DNA from: Planctomyces sp. SH-PL62
Lineage (GTDB): Bacteria; Planctomycetota; Planctomycetia; Planctomycetales; Planctomycetaceae
Direction of reading: 5' to 3'
Assembly: GCA_945893045.1 (NCBI GenBank)
Contig: CAMDEA010000011.1
Coordinates: forward strand, 1 to 64,000
Length of the DNA stretch: 64,000 nt
Position 1 is the first letter of the stretch; every line of letters starts with the position of its first letter. The notes under the pieces were generated by a model that was given only the letters and a program-made list of their open reading frames with translations, was not told where the DNA came from and searched no databases. Positions 3,081 through 61,503 of this stretch are shown here, piece by piece. The translations under genes and the position numbers were made by a program.

Positions 3081-3159
3081 GGCGAGCGGGGCGGCGTCAG
3101 CCCCCCGGTAGTCTGCGAGCGATGCGAATCACCGGGGAGCTGACGCCGCCCCGCTCGCC
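3081..3159. repeat. GGCGAGCGGGG...CCCCGCTCGCC palindrome
   Basis: Imperfect inverted arms begin GGCGAGCGGGGCGGCGTCAG and end with its complement. The same family occurs at 8934-8995 and 50477-50548, and split by another element at 4372-4496. Confidence 0.85.
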
Positions 3160-3407: not shown

Positions 3408-4364
3408 ATGCAACTCGGCCCGCTTCGCATTTCGCATCCGTTCGCATTGGCTCCGATGGAGGAGCATACCAACCCGCCGTTTCGTCAATTGATGCGGCAG
3501 TTGGGCGCGGGCCTTCTCTGCACCGAACGAATTGACGGGTCGGATGTCGCGAAGCGAGATCGTCGGGCCATGCGTCTGCTGGAGACTGCACCGGGGGAAT
3601 CCCCCTGCGCGGGACAGATCAGCGGAGTCGATCCGGCCGAGTTGGCGGAAGCCGCGCGAGTTGTCGAAGAACGCGGATTCGCGATCGTCGATTTGAATTT
3701 CGAGTGTCCGATCCGTCGCCTGGTGGATCGCGGCGAAGGAGGTGCGTTGCTGGCCGATCCAGCGGCGATCGGTCGCATCGTCGCGGCGGTGGTGCGAGCG
3801 GTCTCGATTCCGGTGACGCTCAAAATTCGGACCGGTCCCGATGAATCGAACGAGACGTGTCTCGATGTCGCTCGTGCGGCCGAGCAGGGCGGAGCGGCGG
3901 CGGTTGATCTGCACGCTCGGAGTGTGCGACAGGCGTATGTCGGTGAGGCGGACTGGTCGGCCGTCGCGCGATTGAAACAAGCGGTGACGATCCCGGTGCT
4001 CGGTAGTGGCAGTGTCCGCTCGCCGGCGGATGCAGTTCGCTTTCTCCGCGAGACCGGTGCGGATGGAGTCGCCATTGGGCGCGGATGCCTTGGCCGACCG
4101 TGGATCTTCAAGCAGTCGCGCGAACTTTGGCAGACCGGTGTCGCCAGCCATGAGCCTTCTCCTGCCGAACGAGGTCGCGCGCTGCGGCAACTCATCGAAG
4201 GGGAGTTTCGTTATTACGGGGCACCAGTCGCACTGCGGCGGCTCGCGCGGACGAGCTGCTACTTCGCGAAGTTTGTTCCGGAGTTCGAGTCGTTCAAACG
4301 ATCGATTCACGAAGTCCGCGATCTGGCCGCGTTCCGCCGATTGGTGGCGGAACACTTTCGTTAA
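3408..4364 (+). CDS. tRNA-dihydrouridine synthase (Dus family)
   Basis: This FMN enzyme reduces specific uridines in the tRNA D-loop with NADPH. The 318-residue TIM-barrel protein shows the N-terminal FALAPMEEHTNPPFRQL signature, the catalytic-cysteine segment LNFECPIRRLVDRGEGGALL, LKIRTGPDES, the LHARSVRQAY segment with the phosphate-site histidine, and the FMN-phosphate loop VLGSGSVRSPADA followed by GVAIGRGCLGRPWIF. Start ATG 3408 gives MQLGPLRISHPF, which fits the family. A GTG at 3360 on the edge of a palindrome is an alternative. I cannot assign it to DusA, DusB or DusC. Confidence 0.9.
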   Translation: MQLGPLRISHPFALAPMEEHTNPPFRQLMRQLGAGLLCTERIDGSDVAKRDRRAMRLLETAPGESPCAGQISGVDPAELAEAARVVEERGFAIVDLNFECPIRRLVDRGEGGALLADPAAIGRIVAAVVRAVSIPVTLKIRTGPDESNETCLDVARAAEQGGAAAVDLHARSVRQAYVGEADWSAVARLKQAVTIPVLGSGSVRSPADAVRFLRETGADGVAIGRGCLGRPWIFKQSRELWQTGVASHEPSPAERGRALRQLIEGEFRYYGAPVALRRLARTSCYFAKFVPEFESFKRSIHEVRDLAAFRRLVAEHFR

Positions 4365-4371
4365 TGAAACA

Positions 4372-4496
4372 GGCGAGCGGGGCACCGTAGCAGGCACATT
4401 CCATGTGCCGTCCGCAATTCTCAGGCTGACGGCACATGGAATGTGCCTGCTACTTTCTAAAGTCAGTGCCAATGGGCTGACGCCGCCCCGCTCGCC
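4372..4496. repeat. Nested palindromes: a GTAG element inside a GGCGAGCGGGG element
   Basis: The inner element has perfect 26-bp arms at 4387-4412 and 4428-4453 (GTAGCAGGCACATTCCATGT and its complement). It lies within an outer element whose left arm is cut to GGCGAGCGGGGC (4372-4383), while the right arm is long (GGGCTGACGCCGCCCCGCTC, ending at 4496). This is what insertion of one element into another would leave. Confidence 0.85.
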
Positions 4497-4567
4497 AAGC
4501 GGTTTCGGTATGAATAGATTGCGAGCGTCTGCTGTGCCTGTTGTTTGACCCGCCCAAGGATTCGCTC

Positions 4568-7828: not shown

Positions 7829-7953
7829 AGATTATTCATGGCCTACTCTTTGGAGAGAGCAGCGTGCTGCGATGTAACCCGAAGCGTCAGCGAGTGAGTG
7901 TGTGATGACTCCCTCGCTGACGCTTCGGGTTACATCGCGGCCATGAATAATCT
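7829..7953. repeat. Composite nested palindrome (copy 1 of two in the window)
   Basis: The outer arms AGATTATTCATGGCC (7829-7843) and complement (7939-7953) enclose an inner perfect 24-bp palindrome (7871-7894 and 7913-7936, core GTAACCCGAAGCGTCAGCGA). The whole unit recurs with few differences at 23454-23590. Its size and structure are MITE-like, but I see no target duplication. Confidence 0.85.
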
Positions 7954-8845: not shown

Positions 8846-8933
8846 GCAGCCAGAATAAACGGCGTCTGTCCGGAACGGTAGCACGCCACGGTTGCGATTC
8901 GCGACGCAAACACTCATCGTCTTGGCGAGCGGG

Positions 8934-8995
8934 GTGGCGTCAGCCCCCCGGTGCATTCGCTATGGGACCGGGGGGCTGACGCCGCCCCGCTCGCC
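8934..8995. repeat. GGCGAGCGGGG-family palindrome
   Basis: Inverted arms run from GGCGAGCGGGGTGGCGTCAG at 8934 to its near complement ending at 8995. It is in the shared upstream region of nadK and the divergent transglutaminase-like gene. Confidence 0.85.
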
Positions 8996-9024: not shown

Positions 9025-10173
9025 GTGAAAATCATCCTGACTTTTATGTGCGCTCTGTGCTTGGCTTCGCCCCTGCGAGCGGACGACGCGCCGAAACTCG
9101 ACCCTCGGCAGCCGTACTCGGCGGAACGGCGGAATCCCGTCACGTATGACGTCGAGTTCTTGGTCGCTGTGACCGCTCCCTACAAAACAAAGAAGCTGCG
9201 CGTCTGGCTGCCGATCCCACCCAGCGATCACGGTCAGGAATTGCTCGCGACCGAGTTGACCGCGTTCCCAGATGCCGTGAAACCACAGATTGCGGACGAG
9301 TCATTGTTCGGCAATCGGTTCGCGTATTTTGAGTTCGCCAATCCGCAGGGAGCGCAAGTCATCCGGCACAAGTTCCAGGTCCGCGCTTGGGAACTACGTT
9401 GGCAACTGGACCCCGCTCGCGTGCAATCCGTGACACAGTGGCCTGAGAGTTTTTCCGCATATCGCCGCAGCGAGTCGCAAGCGGTTGTGTCCGACGCGCG
9501 TTTTGAAAAACTCCTCGCCGAGATCGTGCCGCAACGCCGCGGACCACTTCAGGACTTCGACACCGTGCTGACGTGGGTCGATGGCCACTTCGCCTACGAT
9601 CACTCCAAGGCGTCCTTAAAGGCCAGCTCCGTTCATGGACTCGAAAACCTGCGCGGGCATTGCAGCGACTATCACGGGTTCTGCGCCGCGATGGGACGCT
9701 TGCTGGGGCAGCCCACGCGAGTCACCTATGGACTCAACGCTTTTCCCAAGAGTTCGCCGTCACACTGCAAACTGGAAGCGTTCCTGCCACCGTATGGCTG
9801 GGTGAGCTTCGATGTCTCCGAAACTCAAAAGATGACGCAGGCGATTCGCTCCAACAAAGAGTTGTCGGACTCGGAACGCACCGAACTGCTGACCGCCGCG
9901 CGACGCCGATTGGCGAGCGGCTTTCGCGACAACACTTGGTTCGTGCAGACACGCGGCACGGATTACGACCTCGTCCCCAAAGCATCAGCTCGCGTTCCGG
10001 TCGTTCGCACGATCTACGCCGAAGCCGACGGTCAGCCGCTGCCCGACCCCGATCCATCCAGCGGAGAACAAACTACATTCGCGTGGATGACAGCCCATCG
10101 CTTCGAGTCAGATCACGCCGTGAAGCATCCCTTCACGGACCTCGACAGCCTGCGCGAATGGGCGAAGCCTTAA
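9025..10173 (+). CDS. Secreted transglutaminase-like cysteine protein
   Basis: This is a 382-residue protein with a signal peptide (MKIILTFMCALCLASPLRAD). The C-terminal half carries the transglutaminase-like triad: Cys in LRGHCSDYHGFCAAMGRLLG, His in SPSHCKLEAFLPPYGW, and Asp in VSFDVSE. Such bacterial proteins are usually proteases or amidases acting in the periplasm or on the cell surface, and the substrate is unknown. The N-terminal part (YDVEFLVAVTAP, LRVWLPIPPSD) resembles the beta-sandwich that often precedes this domain. The TAA stop overlaps the first bases of the palindrome at 10172. Confidence 0.82.
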   Translation: MKIILTFMCALCLASPLRADDAPKLDPRQPYSAERRNPVTYDVEFLVAVTAPYKTKKLRVWLPIPPSDHGQELLATELTAFPDAVKPQIADESLFGNRFAYFEFANPQGAQVIRHKFQVRAWELRWQLDPARVQSVTQWPESFSAYRRSESQAVVSDARFEKLLAEIVPQRRGPLQDFDTVLTWVDGHFAYDHSKASLKASSVHGLENLRGHCSDYHGFCAAMGRLLGQPTRVTYGLNAFPKSSPSHCKLEAFLPPYGWVSFDVSETQKMTQAIRSNKELSDSERTELLTAARRRLASGFRDNTWFVQTRGTDYDLVPKASARVPVVRTIYAEADGQPLPDPDPSSGEQTTFAWMTAHRFESDHAVKHPFTDLDSLREWAKP

Positions 10174-10228
10174 AGTAGACGAGTCACTCCGTGACTCGAT
10201 TCGAGTCACGGAGTGACTCGTCTACTTT
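10172..10228. repeat. Perfect 28-bp palindrome with a 1-base loop, between convergent genes
   Basis: Arms 10172-10199 and 10201-10228 (AAAGTAGACGAGTCACTCCG and complement) form a near-continuous hairpin on both strands, bounded by AAAG and CTTT. It lies between the transglutaminase-like gene and glgC, so a bidirectional terminator role is plausible. Relatives are at 61414-61470, 36119-36177 and 37510-37568. Confidence 0.9.
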
Positions 10229-23453: not shown

Positions 23454-23590
23454 TAGCCGAGATTATTCATGGCCTACTCATTGGGGAGAGCAGTTTGCTG
23501 CGATGTAACCCGAAGCGTAAGCGAGGGAGTGTGTGATGACTCCCTCGCTTACGCTTCGGGTTACATCGCTGCCATGAATAATCTCGGCTA
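23454..23590. repeat. Composite nested palindrome (copy 2)
   Basis: The outer arms 23454-23473 and 23571-23590 (TAGCCGAGATTATTCATGGC and complement) are perfect. The inner arms 23502-23528 and 23541-23567 are perfect over 27 bp. It is very similar throughout to 7829-7953, including the sequence between the outer and inner arms, so the unit moved or was copied as a whole. Confidence 0.9.
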
Positions 23591-29603: not shown

Positions 29604-30842
29604 ATGTATCTGCGAATGGCCAAACGAGTGCTGCTGGAAACCGATAAGCGGTTGGTCGCCAAGTTCCTGTGGAACATGGGGGTCAAAGGAACGCTGTCGG
29701 TCGTCAAATACAAACGCCGGATGAAGCAAGGAAAATTCTTTCCGCCGTTCTTGTACGTCTCGATTCTCAACACCTGCAACCTGCGCTGCCAGGGCTGCTG
29801 GGTCGATGTCTCCGCCAAGCAGGAGAAGATCAGCCTCGAAGCCTGGAATCGCCTCGTCAACGAGGCCAAGCAGATGGGTAACGTCTTCTTCGGCATCGTC
29901 GGCGGCGAGCCGTTCATGCACCCGCAGTTGCTCGACATGCTGGCCGCGCATCGCGACTGCTACTTCCAAGTCTTCACCAACGGCCACTTCATCACCGACG
30001 AGGTCGCTCGCGAGATGCGCCGCATCGGCAACGTCACACCGCTGATCAGCGTCGAAGGGAGCGAGATCGTCAGCGACGAACGCCGTGGCCGAGGAGGAGT
30101 GCTCAGCAAGACCATGCAAGGCATCGAAGCCTGCCTGCGAAACAACCTGCTAACCGGCGTCTGCACCAGCGTCTGCAAAACGAACATTGACGATCTCGTC
30201 ACCGAGAAGTGGGTCGATCGCCTGATTGAGATGGGCGTGTTCTACACTTGGTTCCACGTCTATCGCCCAATGGGCCCAGATGCCTGCCCCGACCTCTGCC
30301 TGACTCCGGAACAGCAACTTCAAATCCGCAAGTTCGTCGTCGAGATGCGAGCCAAGAAGCCCATCGCCATCGTCGATGCCTACTTTGACGGTGAAGGCCA
30401 GGCCCTCTGCCCCGCCGCGACCGGTATCAGCCACCATATCAACCCGTGGGGCGGCATCGAGCCGTGTCCGATCATCCAATTTGCGAAGGAGTCGATCCAC
30501 GACGAATCGCGCACGCTGGGCGAGAAGATCATGGGCTCGGAATTCCTGCGCGACTTCCGCTCGCTGGCTCAGAAGACAACGCGCGGCTGCATCGTGCTCG
30601 AACGCCCCGACCTGCTGCACAACCTCGTCGTGCTCCACGAAGCGAAAGACACGACCGCTCGCCAAACCGCAATGGCCGAACTGCAAGCGATGACGACTCG
30701 CACCTCGCAGTACAACCCTGGCCACGCTATTCCAGAGAAGAGTTGGGTCTACCGCCTGCTCAAGCGGTACTTGTTCGCCGACTTCGGCGTCTACGACGGA
30801 CACGATCACAGCCAAAGCGCGGCTCCGGCACGAGTCCTGTAG
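29604..30842 (+). CDS. Radical SAM protein (SPASM-like), function unknown
   Basis: This 412-residue protein has the cluster motif CNLRCQGCW, FFGIVGGEPFMHPQLL and FQVFTNGHFI, as in HpnH-type and other class-I radical SAM enzymes, and C-terminal cysteines (ALCPAATGISHH, GGIEPCPII, RGCIVLERPD) that may hold a second cluster. It shares broad layout with HpnH ten kilobases upstream but is not the same family. Start ATG 29604 is preferred over TTG 29589. The TAG stop is provided by the palindrome at 30839. The substrate is unknown. Confidence 0.82.
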   Translation: MYLRMAKRVLLETDKRLVAKFLWNMGVKGTLSVVKYKRRMKQGKFFPPFLYVSILNTCNLRCQGCWVDVSAKQEKISLEAWNRLVNEAKQMGNVFFGIVGGEPFMHPQLLDMLAAHRDCYFQVFTNGHFITDEVAREMRRIGNVTPLISVEGSEIVSDERRGRGGVLSKTMQGIEACLRNNLLTGVCTSVCKTNIDDLVTEKWVDRLIEMGVFYTWFHVYRPMGPDACPDLCLTPEQQLQIRKFVVEMRAKKPIAIVDAYFDGEGQALCPAATGISHHINPWGGIEPCPIIQFAKESIHDESRTLGEKIMGSEFLRDFRSLAQKTTRGCIVLERPDLLHNLVVLHEAKDTTARQTAMAELQAMTTRTSQYNPGHAIPEKSWVYRLLKRYLFADFGVYDGHDHSQSAAPARVL

Positions 30843-30917
30843 CCCGACCCCTTGTGGGTCGGTCGATGATTCATTTCCAACTGCAGGAATCACCCGACCC
30901 ACAAGGGGTCGGGCTAC
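30839..30917. repeat. REP-like palindrome upstream of the RAYT gene
   Basis: Perfect 24-bp arms 30839-30862 and 30894-30917 (GTAGCCCGACCCCTTGTGGG and complement). The first GTAG gives the stop of the radical SAM gene. The same unit lies downstream of the RAYT relic (31516-31593), and one arm lies inside asnB (47979-48002). Confidence 0.93.
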
Positions 30918-30945
30918 AGATTCCAGTCAGATTCCAATCCCTCAC

Positions 30946-30997: not shown

Positions 30998-31519
30998 ATG
31001 TCAATCCGCCCCCGTAATCAGCGATTGGATCGAGCGGTTTATCGCGATCCAGAACGAATGACCTTCTTCACCATTCGGGCGACCGAGGACTCATCGCCAT
31101 TTGCAACAGTTCGCCACAAAGACGGTAAAGTCCCCGTGGTCGAATTTCAGGAAGTACTCTGTCAGCAGACTATGGCCTGTTAGTGGGAATCAAAAGAGAA
31201 GCTCGGCTGTGACGTGTTGGTGGCTTGCTTGAAGCCCGACCATTTGCATTTGATGGCGAGGCCACGCACACACGCCGCAGACGTGCAGACGTTGGTCGAC
31301 CAATTCAAAGGCAAGGCGACGAACGGATCATGGGAGCACGGACATGACGGTCGATTGTGGCAACCCCGGAGCTACGACCACGTCTTGCGTCATGATGAGT
31401 CCGTTTTAGACGCGGCCGAGTACATCGTCTTGAACCCCGTTCGGAAGCATTATGCTTTGAATTGGGAAGACTGGCCTTACACCGTCCGCTGGGACGCGGA
31501 TGCAATGCCGTGGCTGTAG
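30998..31519 (+). pseudogene. REP-associated tyrosine transposase (RAYT, Y1/HUH type), interrupted by one in-frame TAG
   Basis: Codons 1-61 and 63-173 are in one frame, separated only by TAG at 31181-31183 (codon 62). The second part has the HUH motif in LKPDHLHLMARP and the active-site tyrosine block LDAAEYIVLNPVRKH typical of RAYTs; the first part has the MTFFTIRA strand. RAYTs cut single-stranded DNA at REP palindromes. A GGAGG lies about eight bases before ATG 30998, so translation signals are intact. The gene is bracketed by identical palindromes, and its own stop is the TAG of the downstream one. It is probably recently inactivated, because only one lesion is seen. Confidence 0.85.
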
Positions 31520-31593
31520 CCCGACCCCTTGTGGGTCGGAGGAATCCGCTTTTGAACCGCAGGAATCATCCGACCCACAAGGGGTCGGGCTAC
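31516..31593. repeat. REP-like palindrome downstream of the RAYT gene
   Basis: Perfect 24-bp arms 31516-31539 and 31570-31593, the same sequence as at 30839-30917. Part of the loop is also similar (aggaatc next to the right arm). Its GTAG ends the RAYT frame. Confidence 0.93.
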
Positions 31594-31608
31594 GGGCAAA
31601 ACAACAGA

Positions 31609-34600: not shown

Positions 34601-36120
34601 CCTTCTTTCCGCACACCGGGCAACAGATCGGACATCTGTCGAACCCCCAATCCGTTCGCGTTGCGAAACCCGGTCGCGAAGACCTCCAGCTTTTGTCCGT
34701 CGGGAGAGACTCGCAGCAAGCAGCCGTCGTGATCGGTCGCTCCGTCGGCGTTTCCTTTCAGGAAATAGAACCAGCCCAGTGAATCCGTTTCGAGACACGT
34801 CACGTACTCGTGACCGTTGGCGGTGACTTGGCCGTCGTTGTTGAAGTTCTCGTACCAGTCCGCTTCGCCATCTCCATTGAGATCGTGCAGCCGAGTGATC
34901 TGGTCCCGGCCGACGACGTAGATTTCGCTCTTGACGATCTTCAGGCCGAGCGGCTGGAACAATCCGGTGGCGAACCGCTTCCATTTGAGCTTCTCCAGCT
35001 TGTCATCAATGCCGCTAACGAGCCACACGTCGCCATGCAAAGTACAGATGGCCGCGTCGTAGGCCAGCCTTTCCAGGCTGACCCGAACGTCGCTCGACTC
35101 TGATCGCGCAGCCGACGTTGGTGAAGCGTTCGGGTCAGCCTGGAAAGGCTGACCTACGAAGAAGTCATGCCCGCCGACAAACATCAGCGCCTTGTACGGG
35201 TTGTCGAACGGCAGCGTGAGCGTATCGACGACCAACGGTTCGTCTTTGTCGGATACGGCTCCGCGCGTCGTGATCTCGTGAGTCCAACGGGTCGGTCCAG
35301 GTTCGACGAGTTGTTGGAGCGCTGTTTTCTCCGTGCCCTTCCGTGAAATCCGTGGCGTCAATGTTCGCTCATCCAACTTTTGGAACACGGATGACGCGGA
35401 TTTCGCGGATGCGGGAAAGTAGAGCGTCAGACGGACGGGTTGAGCGTGCGGCGGCACTTTGACCGTGATCGGTCCTTTGTCGTCGTACCGTTCGAGCGTC
35501 GCGGCGTTCGGCTCATGGATCAACTTCACCGGTGTTCCCGGCTCGGCCACGAGCAATTCCAAGTCCGAATCGCTCGGCGCGATTTCGAGTTCACGCGAGA
35601 AGACTTTTTCGCCTTCAATCGTCTCCAACCACGGACTCTCCCACACGACGACTTGCTGCGGCCCGACGGTGTATTCAAAGACCACTCGATCGCCGTGCAA
35701 GTGCAGGCCGCGATACTTGGCCCACTCGCGCGGCAGCGGGCCAAACGGTTTCGGACGCGGGTCTTTGAATTCACCCTCGCGTGACCATCCGGGCTGTCTC
35801 GGCGAATGAAACGCGATCTCTTTGCCCACCTTCGGCGGGCCGATGATGCCGTAGCGCGCCGGATTGAATTCGAGAAACTCGCCGGTCCAACCGCAGACGA
35901 CGCGCAGCAGTTCCGTATCGAACAAGATCGACGCTTCCGACTTTTCGCCGATGCGCACGGCGATCCCTTTGAGCGTCATCTCCTTCGGCGTCCAAATCGT
36001 CGCCGAGTAGAACCGACCGACATCCATTTGCTGCAAGCGATTATCGACCGAATCTTGTTCGGTCCACTTGAATCCGACGGCATCCTCGCCCCAATGGCCG
36101 GTGATCTTGCCTGGTTTCAA
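31609..36120 (-). CDS. Multiheme cytochrome-motif protein with propeller region (DUF6797-like N terminus)
   Basis: About 1503 residues. The N-terminal part (YSATIWTPKEMTLKGIAVRI, VCGWTGEFLEFNPARYG) resembles DUF6797. A propeller follows (FATGFRNANGLGVR, DLNGDGEADWYENF), then a sandwich domain, then a C-terminal part with five CxxCH motifs (CFRCH, CIGCH, CRQCH, CAVCH, CRQCH). It should be periplasmic, yet it has no signal peptide and no good start. The frame is open to a GTG at 36288, but that part is the ThuA gene in another frame. TTG 36118-36120 is only a placeholder. It may be made by -1 frameshifting from the ThuA gene. Four in-frame repeat elements interrupt it and a fifth crosses its start. 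Confidence 0.75.
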   Translation of the reverse strand: MKPGKITGHWGEDAVGFKWTEQDSVDNRLQQMDVGRFYSATIWTPKEMTLKGIAVRIGEKSEASILFDTELLRVVCGWTGEFLEFNPARYGIIGPPKVGKEIAFHSPRQPGWSREGEFKDPRPKPFGPLPREWAKYRGLHLHGDRVVFEYTVGPQQVVVWESPWLETIEGEKVFSRELEIAPSDSDLELLVAEPGTPVKLIHEPNAATLERYDDKGPITVKVPPHAQPVRLTLYFPASAKSASSVFQKLDERTLTPRISRKGTEKTALQQLVEPGPTRWTHEITTRGAVSDKDEPLVVDTLTLPFDNPYKALMFVGGHDFFVGQPFQADPNASPTSAARSESSDVRVSLERLAYDAAICTLHGDVWLVSGIDDKLEKLKWKRFATGLFQPLGLKIVKSEIYVVGRDQITRLHDLNGDGEADWYENFNNDGQVTANGHEYVTCLETDSLGWFYFLKGNADGATDHDGCLLRVSPDGQKLEVFATGFRNANGLGVRQMSDLLPGVRKEGQVENILNPGDIFTVAPQEGEWTPGSAIFQVNQGRFYGYTPSAHRATPPTEFSAPLCWIPRLQDNSSGGQVWIPDRNWGKLAGLPLHLSYGTSQLFLLLRHSHIRSLVSQSASGGGLSVRPDAREPDKDVTIWNGATVPLPLSFESGVMRGRFRRSDEHLYVSGLRGWVSNAAKDGCFQRVRYNERPLDLPLKIVAFENGVALTFTDPLDPKEAEDPDNYRIQKWNYRWSAAYGSPEFKVSAPTQEGRDEVEVISATMMPGFAEPTVFLELSNMQPVHQLSISLSLKSADGRPIERRIDATINAVGKGRYEVPNRPPRARPGLLAEAEVEKLVPGIRCEFVGHVSNVPDQKNGQVEIVPHVRRMAAWRFEPDELAGTRQIVADGYLVAPRRGKYRFSAEGSGATDVSIGDRIVWRSSDEKPADVELVRGYNRLRIVQRVAPNQLTSLRLLWSGLDFETEPIPPTSLFCERLPEVVDSLRLGGELFANHQCFRCHRVSDEVLQSKRAMPELHAEAPDLTGIGSRLRGEWIAQWVLNPSQMRADARMPRLFPQSPTDEHRQQAADIAAYLSVATLAKSVGASSPAPRSGERGYAEPPVRQQSLRLWEDLGCIGCHRLQPMKDELTDNRTSLLFARDKFLPGELAHFLQQPQRHHAWSRMPDFGLSDAEAASLTQLLTEPADTASALPAIRANGDVARGQKLFASLGCRQCHRVSHNEPLPKPHLPSVFGKAPVRGCLAVPEQAPADRWPNYDLNPAEQSALRTLLRSDERKLSADSFTDMSRRLMTDLQCAVCHPRDGRRNSLSEILADESETGLPPEVVPNLTWAGEKLHAPWIQSLLAGQIAERPRPWMKLRMPSFPARALLLANGLAHEHGLSREPLPRPSIEPDLAEIGEALATRAGLLDCRQCHAIGPLPPTGDKSTLLAPGINFAQTRERIRHDFYRRFTLDPPRYDVTTRMPKLVVDGRTTKVKNVFDGDARQQFEAVWHFLQTVPSATADP
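32830..32895. repeat. In-frame palindrome in the multiheme gene (66 bases)
   Basis: Inverted arms from GTAGCCACGCTCGCCAGAAC (32830) to CTAC (32895). At 66 bases it adds exactly 22 codons (around KSVGASSPAPRSGERGYAE) between two heme segments. Confidence 0.8.
33522..33583. repeat. In-frame palindrome of the GTGGGGCACG family
   Basis: The arms CGTGGGGCACGATTTCAAC and GTTGGAAACGTGCCCCACG are inverted with two mismatches. It encodes VGHVSNVPDQKNGQVEIVPH in the multiheme gene. Confidence 0.8.
35059..35157. repeat. In-frame GTAG...CTAC palindrome (99 bases)
   Basis: Imperfect 31-bp arms at 35059-35089 and 35127-35157, of the same family as 2006-2117 and 21914-21986. The 99 bases equal 33 codons and encode a low-similarity stretch (VGQPFQADPNASPTS and onward) in the propeller region. 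Confidence 0.85.
35336..35412. repeat. In-frame repeat of the CCGTGAAATCCGTG type
   Basis: The sequences ccttccgtgaaatccgtggc and gatgacgcggatttcgcgga are roughly inverted and related to 18657-18765. They encode SASSVFQKLDERTLTPRISR in the multiheme gene. Confidence 0.55.
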
Positions 36121-49201: not shown

Positions 49202-50551
49202 ATGTCTTTCGCTTCCAACCACGATCCACTCACGACGGCCAAGAACGCGGCACGAACCCTCGCGTTCCGCGCACCACGTTCTTCAACGCCGCATTCCTTC
49301 ACGCCGGCACCCGTGACGCTGACCATGCAGATTCAATCGTTCTGCGCGCAGGCAGCGTTGTTCTTCTTGCCGTTGCCGGCGATCAAGTACACCGAAACGA
49401 GTCTGACTCTGGCGGATCTGTTTTTGATTCCGGCCATTCTGCTGAACTTCAGCCATGCACTGCGACTGCGGGCGTTTCAGATTCCCTTTCTGCTGGCGCT
49501 GCCGCTCAACTTGGTGTCGCACATGCTCGACCCGGACGGGAAATTGGTTCCGATCTTGCAGGTGGTTTACTTGTGGGGCTTCTTGATTCCGTTCGGCTGG
49601 TGCGCGTTCGTGAATTTGTCGTCGCAACGGATTGCCTACCTGCTGTTGATTGCCAGTGGGCTGAGTTGCCTCGTCGCCATGGGACAGTTCACCGGTGTTG
49701 TGCCGACGCTGCCGACTCAGAAAATCATCGACCTCAAAGACAGCAGCCGCGCGGCCGGGTTAGTGTTGCAGTGCAACTCGCTGACGATGGCGCTGACCCC
49801 CTGCTTTCTGTTTCTGCCGGCGGTGCGGCAGGCATCGTTGCGGATTGTGCTGCTGCTGCTGCTGGGAGGCATCGCCAGCACGGTGTCGAAGTCGGCGATC
49901 CTGGCCGTCCCCGGATTGCTGTTCTACTTCTTCTGGCGCGAGCCTGAGAAAGGCCGCGTGCTGCGCTGGCTAGTCGCGGCGAGCGTATTGGGGTTGCTCG
50001 TATTCAATCGCGGAGCCAGCTTGGCCGAGTTGGTGGACAAGCTCAATGCCGTTGTGGAATTCCGACTGTCCAACGCCGACACGTCCATTGACGACCGAGC
50101 CCACTTGGCTCAAGTGGCGTTCGATCATTCCAGCGAATGCCTGCTGCTGGGCTATGGCACGGAGGGCACCTACACCGTGATGACCAGCCAAGGTGCCATG
50201 GGCCAGACCGTGCATGTGTTTTATCTGGGCCTGCTGCTGATCGAAGGCTGGACCGCCGTCAGTCTGACGATCCTGGGCTTCTTGGGATTGCTCGCGTCGT
50301 TGTGGTCGCTGCGAAAGTACAACGACGCGATCATGCTGGGGACACACTTGTTGGCGATCTCGGTGACGACGGTGCTTTATCTGAGCTATCAGTATTACCC
50401 GTTCGTGATCGCCGCGGCCGCGATCGTGCGTGCTCAATCCGAACGCGCGGCAAGTTCACAGGCCAGGAAAAAGACAGGCGAGCGGGGCGGCGTTAGCCCC
50501 CCGGTTTCGCGGCGAATTCACCGGGGGGCTAACGCCGTCCCGCTCGCCTGA
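49202..50551 (+). CDS. O-antigen polymerase/ligase-like membrane protein
   Basis: This 449-residue protein has about ten hydrophobic segments (ALFFLPLPAIKYTETSLTLA, IVLLLLLGGIASTVSKSAIL) and a periplasmic-loop pattern (LLGYGTEGTYTVMTSQGAMGQTVHVFYL) as in the Wzy/WaaL superfamily. It probably polymerises or ligates the polysaccharide exported by the flippase gene. ATG 49202 gives 41 extra non-hydrophobic residues; ATG 49325 (MQIQSFCAQA) is an equally possible start. The last residues (TGERGGVSPPVSRRIHRGAN) come from the palindrome at 50477. Confidence 0.72.
   Translation: MSFASNHDPLTTAKNAARTLAFRAPRSSTPHSFTPAPVTLTMQIQSFCAQAALFFLPLPAIKYTETSLTLADLFLIPAILLNFSHALRLRAFQIPFLLALPLNLVSHMLDPDGKLVPILQVVYLWGFLIPFGWCAFVNLSSQRIAYLLLIASGLSCLVAMGQFTGVVPTLPTQKIIDLKDSSRAAGLVLQCNSLTMALTPCFLFLPAVRQASLRIVLLLLLGGIASTVSKSAILAVPGLLFYFFWREPEKGRVLRWLVAASVLGLLVFNRGASLAELVDKLNAVVEFRLSNADTSIDDRAHLAQVAFDHSSECLLLGYGTEGTYTVMTSQGAMGQTVHVFYLGLLLIEGWTAVSLTILGFLGLLASLWSLRKYNDAIMLGTHLLAISVTTVLYLSYQYYPFVIAAAAIVRAQSERAASSQARKKTGERGGVSPPVSRRIHRGANAVPLA
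50477..50548. repeat. GGCGAGCGGGG palindrome encoding the C terminus of the polymerase-like gene
   Basis: Inverted arms run from GGCGAGCGGGGCGGCGTTAG to its complement ending at 50548, directly before the TGA stop. It lies between convergent genes (polymerase-like and ndk). Confidence 0.85.
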
Positions 50552-61399: not shown

Positions 61400-61413
61400 T
61401 GCGGCGTCGCCGC

Positions 61414-61470
61414 AAAGTAGCCGAGTCACTCCGTGACTCGATTCGAGTCACGGAGTGACTCGGCTACTTT
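61414..61470. repeat. Perfect 28-bp palindrome with a 1-base loop
   Basis: Arms 61414-61441 and 61443-61470 (AAAGTAGCCGAGTCACTCCG and complement). Same family as 10172-10228. It sits between the two ExbD genes, in the middle of an operon. Confidence 0.92.
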
Positions 61471-61503
61471 GCTCGCGGCGGAACGATGTGACGGAGTTTT
61501 CTC

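Follow-up and report, generated by a model that had tools for sequence, protein, structure and literature searches.

The nested palindromes at 4372-4496 of the window, the whole 64,000-nucleotide stretch of DNA that was analysed, consist of three layers, in which an outer GAG-type REPIN holds in its hairpin apex an IS4-type MITE with 16-bp ends CAATGGCACTSACTTT, and the MITE carries a GTAG REPIN as cargo. With a probability of roughly 85%, the MITE inserted together with its GTAG REPIN into an older GAG-type REPIN and a deletion on the left side followed. This history is built on the transposon ends, 10-bp duplications around other copies, sites free of the insert, uninterrupted outer REPINs in sister species and an IS4 transposase encoded in an element with the same ends. 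The window copy, whose left end is lost, presumably arose in the same way as its intact siblings, with the left deletion as a probable last step.

The nest would have started as a simple GAG-type REPIN, made of two inverse REPs GGCGAGCGGGGCGGCGTCAGCCCCCCGGT, between the dihydrouridine synthase and PSCyt/PSD1 genes. A 113-bp non-autonomous IS4-type MITE with CAATGGCACTSACTTT ends, already carrying the GTAG REPIN, would have inserted in the apex GGCTGACGCC of one REP arm, with 10 bp being duplicated and an IS4-family DDE transposase being supplied in trans. With the later deletion, the transposon end and the target copy on the left would have been lost along with most of the REP arm on that side, and GGCGAGCGGGGC-ACC would have come to adjoin the cargo.

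Layout of the nest

The coordinates and letters given for the nest in the original prediction are exact. The 67-bp GTAG palindrome (4387-4453), which starts with GTAG and has perfect 26-bp inverted arms (4387-4412 and 4428-4453; given as an arm pair of 29 nt at 97% in the inverted-repeat listing of the window), is enclosed by the ends of a GGCGAGCGGGG palindrome, whose two 12-bp pieces (4372-4383 and 4485-4496) are exact reverse complements of each other (Table 1). The outer arms had been assigned to the GGCGAGCGGGG family, and since simple copies of this family occur in the window at 3081-3159, 8924-8995, and 50477-50548, they are indeed related to it. The nest is located between a Dus gene (dihydrouridine synthase, PF01207) and a PSCyt1/PSCyt2/PSD1 gene. 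A known structured RNA was considered for the nest and rejected, as Rfam at gathering scores gives tRNA only in the window.

Table 1. Parts of the nested element and their positions in the window.
Feature	Position	Strand	Basis
Outer GAG-type REPIN, left-arm remnant GGCGAGCGGGGC	4372..4383	+	Longer left arms in L040, L046, and L054; simple copies in the window
ACC between arm remnant and inner REPIN, read as a deletion scar	4384..4386	+	Type-A siblings have about CAATGGCACTGACTTTACCCGCAAA before GTAG
Inner GTAG REPIN, MITE cargo	4387..4453	.	Inverted GTAG-tagged REPs 4387-4409 and 4431-4453
TTTCT, MITE-internal spacer from cargo to end	4454..4458	+	Side-by-side comparison of copies
Right terminal inverted repeat of the IS4-type MITE, AAAGTCAGTGCCAATG, 1 mismatch	4459..4474	-	16-bp end search of the genome
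Insertion target (10 bp), right copy, GGCTGACGCC; outer REP hairpin apex	4475..4484	-	10-bp direct repeats of two-ended elements
Outer GAG-type REPIN, distal right arm GCCCCGCTCGCC	4485..4496	-	Sequence and copies side by side

Copies of the composite in the genome of the window

The genome of the window is a draft of 251 contigs and 89% complete. The query 4350-4510 detected 40 distinct places in it, the window included (40 scored of 324 first-look candidates), and all 40 match past the GTAG palindrome into the right flank. The 39 places besides the window were aligned side by side and compared by eye. The right side is common to nearly all copies and comprises the GTAG palindrome, a short spacer, AAAGTSAGTGCCATTG, and GGCTGACGCCGCCCCGCTCGCC, with some copies decayed. 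The left side is the mirror image in type A (GGCGAGCGGGGCGGCGTCAGCC followed by CAATGGCACTGACTTTACCCGCAAA), consists of GGCGAGCGGGGCGGCGTCAAT immediately 5' of GTAG in the many copies of type B, and has ACCGGGGGGCTGACGCC ahead of CAATGGCAC in a third form. The window copy has GGCGAGCGGGGC-ACC on the left and is otherwise type A in its right side and inner spacer; it lacks the left MITE end and the remainder of the outer left arm. Siblings L045 and L046 retain the left MITE end. The left arm had been described as cut by the insertion after 12 bases, but that point is not the insertion junction, because siblings have a longer left arm at that place, together with the left MITE end; the junction surviving in the window copy is on the right (4474/4475). 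Since the window copy lacks both the left end and the left target copy, its own duplication is not visible.

Type B, which is without the left MITE end, accounts for 22 copies, 16 of them exactly 131 bp long, and their flanks look by eye unrelated to one another. One GGCGTCA repeat lies in the REP arm and another in the spacer next to GTAG, and a deletion from one to the other would be expected to produce type B; an exact count of spacers at the type-B junction gave 21 deleted versus 7 undeleted. Slippage may have recurred at this junction, and gene conversion between REP arms could look alike. The window copy would require a left deletion other than that of type B.

The original prediction that one element had inserted in another, and that such elements move, holds in this comparison, but the element that moved is the 113-bp IS4-type MITE with GTAG as cargo and not the GTAG element. 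It is highly improbable that the GTAG REPIN moved alone, driven by a RAYT, into the GGCGAGCGGGG palindrome and cut its left arm after 12 bases, as all 40 copies in the genome of the window show by eye at least part of the right MITE end. The window copy is one of dozens and therefore records no separate insertion of a GTAG element.

Chance is excluded for the inner arm, which has 86+86 matches in the genome of the window against 0+0 for a reversed-pattern control (≤3 mismatches). Similarly, the junction GTGCCATTGGGCTGACGCCG has 90 matches against 2 in the control (≤3 mismatches). Named GTDB contigs contain the junction AAAGTVAGTGCCATTGGGCTGACGCC without mismatch in 82 stretches, and all 80 that are listed are titled as planctomycete MAGs.

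Ends, target duplications, and cargo of the MITE

The 16-bp MITE end is present at 124 sites in the genome of the window and at 3 in the control (≤2 mismatches). Among the loci scanned for pairs, the ends form 105 two-ended pairs, 92 of them distinct, and 86 were counted after six had been dropped (L209, 814 bp; L240, L243, L244, and L278, >1 kb; and an overlapping alternative of 150 bp in L166). A 10-bp direct repeat with ≤2 mismatches flanks 61 of the 86 elements and is exact in 35; an inverted repeat flanks 18 and neither flanks 7. In 57 of the 61 elements, the target differs by ≤1 mismatch from the apex sequence of the GAG-type REP hairpin (GGCTGACGCC or its complement); it is GGCGCTAGCC of a sister REP family in 3 and further off in 1. 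Direct repeats are rarer in the genome of the window (13/28) than in the other genomes (48/58).

REP targeting is overstated by selection in these counts, as most loci were found with a query containing REP flank, and 16 further places from a search with the end only were fetched for this reason; that search lists 100 of the 124 sites in the genome of the window. Three of these places (L315, L317, and L329) are 113-bp units with the GTAG REPIN of the window in non-REP DNA, each with 10/10 duplications. Among the 94 loci scanned in the genome of the window, 36 have both ends: 14 have direct repeats at REP-labelled sites, 11 inverted repeats, 8 neither, and 3 lie in non-REP DNA. One of the 14, L316, is flanked by GCCGGAAGCC and GGCGGAAGCC (one mismatch), which is not a GAG-type REP. 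The insert is absent from the L329 site in the congener G004, where a gapless 118-nt alignment has 80% identity and the target itself has diverged, and likewise from the L315 site in the same congener (82% identity; the alignment has a gap of 10 nt upstream of the junction).

The units in non-REP DNA bear on two of the alternative histories. They are bounded by MITE ends and 10-bp duplications and not by GTAG, which argues against movement of the GTAG REPIN alone. It is also unlikely, although less so, that there were few MITE insertions and that the composite interior was afterwards copied to other REPINs by gene conversion between REP arms of ~20 bp. One junction is common to type-B copies at many sites, and their right side varies (..GTGAG and ..GTCAG spacers), as such copying could produce, but 20 bp is a short homology, a junction between two GGCGTCA repeats can recur by slippage, and true transposition is needed to account for the perfect duplications outside REP DNA.

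The sizes of the 86 elements cluster at 113 bp (33 elements) and 123 bp (27 elements). The same ends hold at least four types of palindrome as cargo, by motif count: GTAGCAGG in 29 elements, the GAG-B/GTAGCGG group in 47 (the motifs do not separate these heads), GAGCCGGAACGC in 4, GTAACCC in 1, and GTAGCAGG together with the GAG-B/GTAGCGG group in 1 (L264). None of the counted motifs is present in the other four, namely L220, which holds another palindrome, L106, and two 53-bp elements. Besides the GTAG palindrome, loci with the junction GTGCCATTGGGCTGACGCCG in the genome of the window hold within the same ends GAGCGGCAAGGCGCTAGCC (L100 and L172), GTAGCGGCACGGCGC[AG]AGCCG (L108 and L112), and a different one in L115. 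The GTAG family had been called the younger one, and this may be so at the locus of the window, but it does not extend to the families, because GAG-type REPINs are also cargo of the same MITE. An ancestral empty MITE was not found among the loci examined; the 53-bp L222 was considered as one and rejected, since by eye it resembles a 123-bp element minus ~70 bp between CACGG repeats.

Single loci show further arrangements. A GAG-B REPIN and a GTAG REPIN stand in tandem within one MITE (L264:2292-2488), and the same MITE ends surround a GTAACCCGAAGCGTCAGCGAGGG palindrome, a cargo without the GTAG head (L232:1607-1726). Four layers are present at 484-692 of L202 (G008:C400:1300-2200), i.e., a GAG REPIN, an IS4-type MITE, a GAG-B REPIN, and innermost a 92-bp palindrome TGTCCTGAGTTGT..ACAACTCAGGACA with a CTAG direct repeat.

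Order of events in sister species

The outer element is older than the insert, as had been proposed, and both the site of the window and the type-B sites bear this out. Eleven syntenic intergenic regions were compared, that of the window included; G001 and G009 have no close Dus orthologue. At the orthologous site, G008 and G006 have an uninterrupted palindrome GGCGAGCGGCAGGGCGTCAGCCC..GGGCTGACGCCCTGCCGCTCGCC. Its flanks are similar and can be aligned as far as the element itself. A further palindrome of this kind is located in a second, paralogous region of G006, and a related one in G010. The outer palindrome is absent from the site in G002, G004, G005, G011, G003, and G007, and the inner element is absent from it in all ten relatives compared.

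The G008 and G006 palindrome belongs to a diverged subfamily (GGCAGGGCGTCAGCCC). The arms of the G008 element differ in sequence from those in the genome of the window, so that the two outer elements probably, though not certainly, descend from one. G002 and G004 are closer by coding identity, yet have no GAG palindrome at this site, and would have to have lost it if the outer element is of common descent. In many of the congeners compared, the repeats in the dus-PSD1 intergenic region (4365-4567 and its orthologues) are different ones, and the region is a place of repeat turnover.

For 12 of the 22 type-B copies, the joined flanks were searched in 12 genomes, including that of the window, and 20 orthologous regions (both flanks matched, or a spanning match) were fetched for 10 sites, with no region for L055 and L057. 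A simple GAG-type REPIN stands at the same position in 9 of the 20 regions, which represent 8 of the 10 sites; the composite therefore arose within standing REPINs. Among the other regions, L295, L296, and L300 are without any REPIN, L301 has a REPIN plus a MITE with a different REPIN, L309 has what looks like a decayed REPIN below the threshold, and six hold other sequence, including L303, in which a single REP arm is present. The L069 site is in a different state in each of four species: no element, a REPIN, a REPIN plus a MITE with other cargo, and type B.

These sites also weigh on the improbable alternative that the composite moves as one large REPIN, with a RAYT mobilising GGCGAGC...GCTCGCC and its contents. 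The number of type-B copies, their recurrent length and their unrelated flanks would fit such movement, but at the sites where a sister holds a simple REPIN at the same position, the outer element was there without its contents.

The IS4 transposase

The end AAAGTAAGTGCCATTG borders longer interiors in the congeners G001, G004, and G008, mostly near contig ends. Both ends are present in a 1515-bp element (L244:554-2068) on contig CANJQC010000108.1, titled Planctomycetaceae bacterium. Its open frame of 408 residues from stop to stop (L244:807-2030, minus strand) matches the IS4 family transposase NF033592 of NCBIfam at 118.2 bits (cut-off 115) and PF01609 at 47.4 bits (cut-off 23). The flanks of L244 are alike at only 6 of 10 positions. 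Similarly, a G008 fragment (L205:1324-1866, minus strand) matches PF01609 and PF13701. The YREK signature Y-2-R-3-E-6-K is complete in the G008 fragment YRHRGDVEVDIRNLK and has Q at its last position in L244. Two N-terminal transposase fragments, from G001 and G008, have no Pfam match, the transposase has no sequence match in the PDB, and L204 of G004 has one end only and no intact IS. The 181-residue G008 transposase fragment is matched in 5 of the 12 genomes searched (E≤1e-10), and at this threshold not in the genome of the window, a draft that is 89% complete.

Subgroup IS4 is described with ends of the form -AATR--------WTW, lengths of 1400-1650 bp, direct repeats of 10-13 bp, and the YREK signature (PMC2266710). 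The end CAATGGCACTTACTTT fits this pattern, the length of 1515 bp and the 10-bp duplication are also in the range given there, and the elements described here are like the subgroup in ends, length, and duplication size, but unlike it in that most copies are miniature and without a transposase (PMC2266710). The MITE would be moved in trans by an IS4-family transposase.

Relation to known elements

Each layer of the nest is of a kind already known, and the REP-homing MITE with exchangeable REPIN cargo is a new form of these; the literature search found no published description of such an element. Planctomycetes are among the groups already known to have GTAG REPs, and REP dimers regularly lie inside palindromes in A. 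variabilis, T. roseum, and H. neapolitanus (PMC3733652). That study presents the enclosing palindrome as a consensus sequence, leaves it unexplained, and did not find unlinked copies of it in two of the three genomes (PMC3733652). The palindromes described here differ from these in that the inner part consists of transposon ends with 10-bp duplications, the outer part is a second REPIN, and unlinked outer copies exist. The unexplained palindromes around REP dimers in other phyla could be the ends of similar elements, which offers a testable answer to the remark made in that study (PMC3733652). ISRm22, an IS4-family element that targets REPs, is reported with 10 of 10 copies in REPs (PMC1525189). 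Insertion of an IS4-family element in REPs is common to both cases, but here it is mostly a 113- or 123-bp MITE with REPINs of its own.

It stands at about even odds that these are REP-homing transposons in a wider sense, in which IS4-type ends repeatedly captured at least four kinds of REPIN and turned supposedly RAYT-dependent elements into DDE-transposase MITEs. If so, REPs are both target and cargo, and nests can grow layer by layer (compare L202 and L264). A REP-homing MITE would be a simple cause of nested palindromes, and its precise junctions, together with the alleles of sister species, constitute a record of insertions that is open to ordering.

REPINs and RAYT-like genes

REPINs are usually explained by RAYT transposases. 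The family described here appears to spread mainly as cargo, carried by a DDE transposon whose homing targets are other REPs, which would be a second route. The GTAG-type REPIN is like the REPIN/RAYT systems in its GTAG-tagged hairpin REPs, inverse pairs, and many copies (86+86 arms), and in the location of a Y1 transposase gene between related REPs, here in a congener; it is unlike them as a cargo between IS4-type ends that is rarely free in the genome of the window (PMC3116915; PMC2817692).

Listed places cover 100 of the 86+86 GTAG arms, and 12 of them without a listed MITE end were fetched (L372-L383; L384 repeats L165). A GAG-type REP arm adjoins 11 of these 12 REPINs, so among the places listed the GTAG REPIN of this genome occurs almost only inside the nest, which again weighs against its moving alone. 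The exception, L372, is a GTAG REPIN without an adjoining GAG-REP arm and favours such movement, as do two observations in other genomes. Matches in G051 and G054 lie mostly within about 31-109 of the query, the GTAG part, and these match ranges alone suggest GTAG REPINs without the MITE ends. In the congener G006 (L158), a Y1_Tnp (RAYT-like) gene has GTAGYAGGCACACTCCGTGTGCC on both sides, and these REPs are 2-3 mismatches from the GTAG REP of the window (at 1066+, 1172-, and 1976- around the Y1_Tnp match). No GTAG REP was found beside Y1_Tnp at the 11 Y1_Tnp loci of the genome of the window, three of which (L015, L018, and L019) have REPs of other families on both sides.

The GAG-type REPIN is a repeated inverse pair of hairpin REPs, with three simple copies in the window. 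Its REPs have the head GGCGAG and no GTAG-type head, and the outer element is therefore REP-like by structure and not a GTAG REP. No RAYT with the exact outer REP on both sides was found in 60 of the 91 Y1_Tnp matches of the genus, which argues further against the composite as one large REPIN. Single degenerate matches of the outer REP lie close to L131 and L150; in L157, a pair of related REPs is located ~800 bp to one side. The related REP GAGCGGCACGGCGCTAGCCGC is located on both sides of the Y1_Tnp gene L018 in the genome of the window and beside one in G008 (L146 and L148).

Other palindromes and RAYT-like sequences were observed besides those of the nest. A Y1_Tnp (RAYT-like) match with an internal TAG at 31175-31366 of the window has GTAGCCCGACCCC REPINs on both sides (30837-30919 and 31511-31598). 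The palindrome families GTAGGTCAGGCTTTCC, GTAGCCGAGTCACTCC, and GTAACCCGAAGCG occur in the window at 2002-2121, 35048-35168, 10172-10228, 61412-61472, 23497-23572, and 7866-7941, and GTAGGTCAGGCTTTCC palindromes also flank the Y1_Tnp gene of L015 on both sides.
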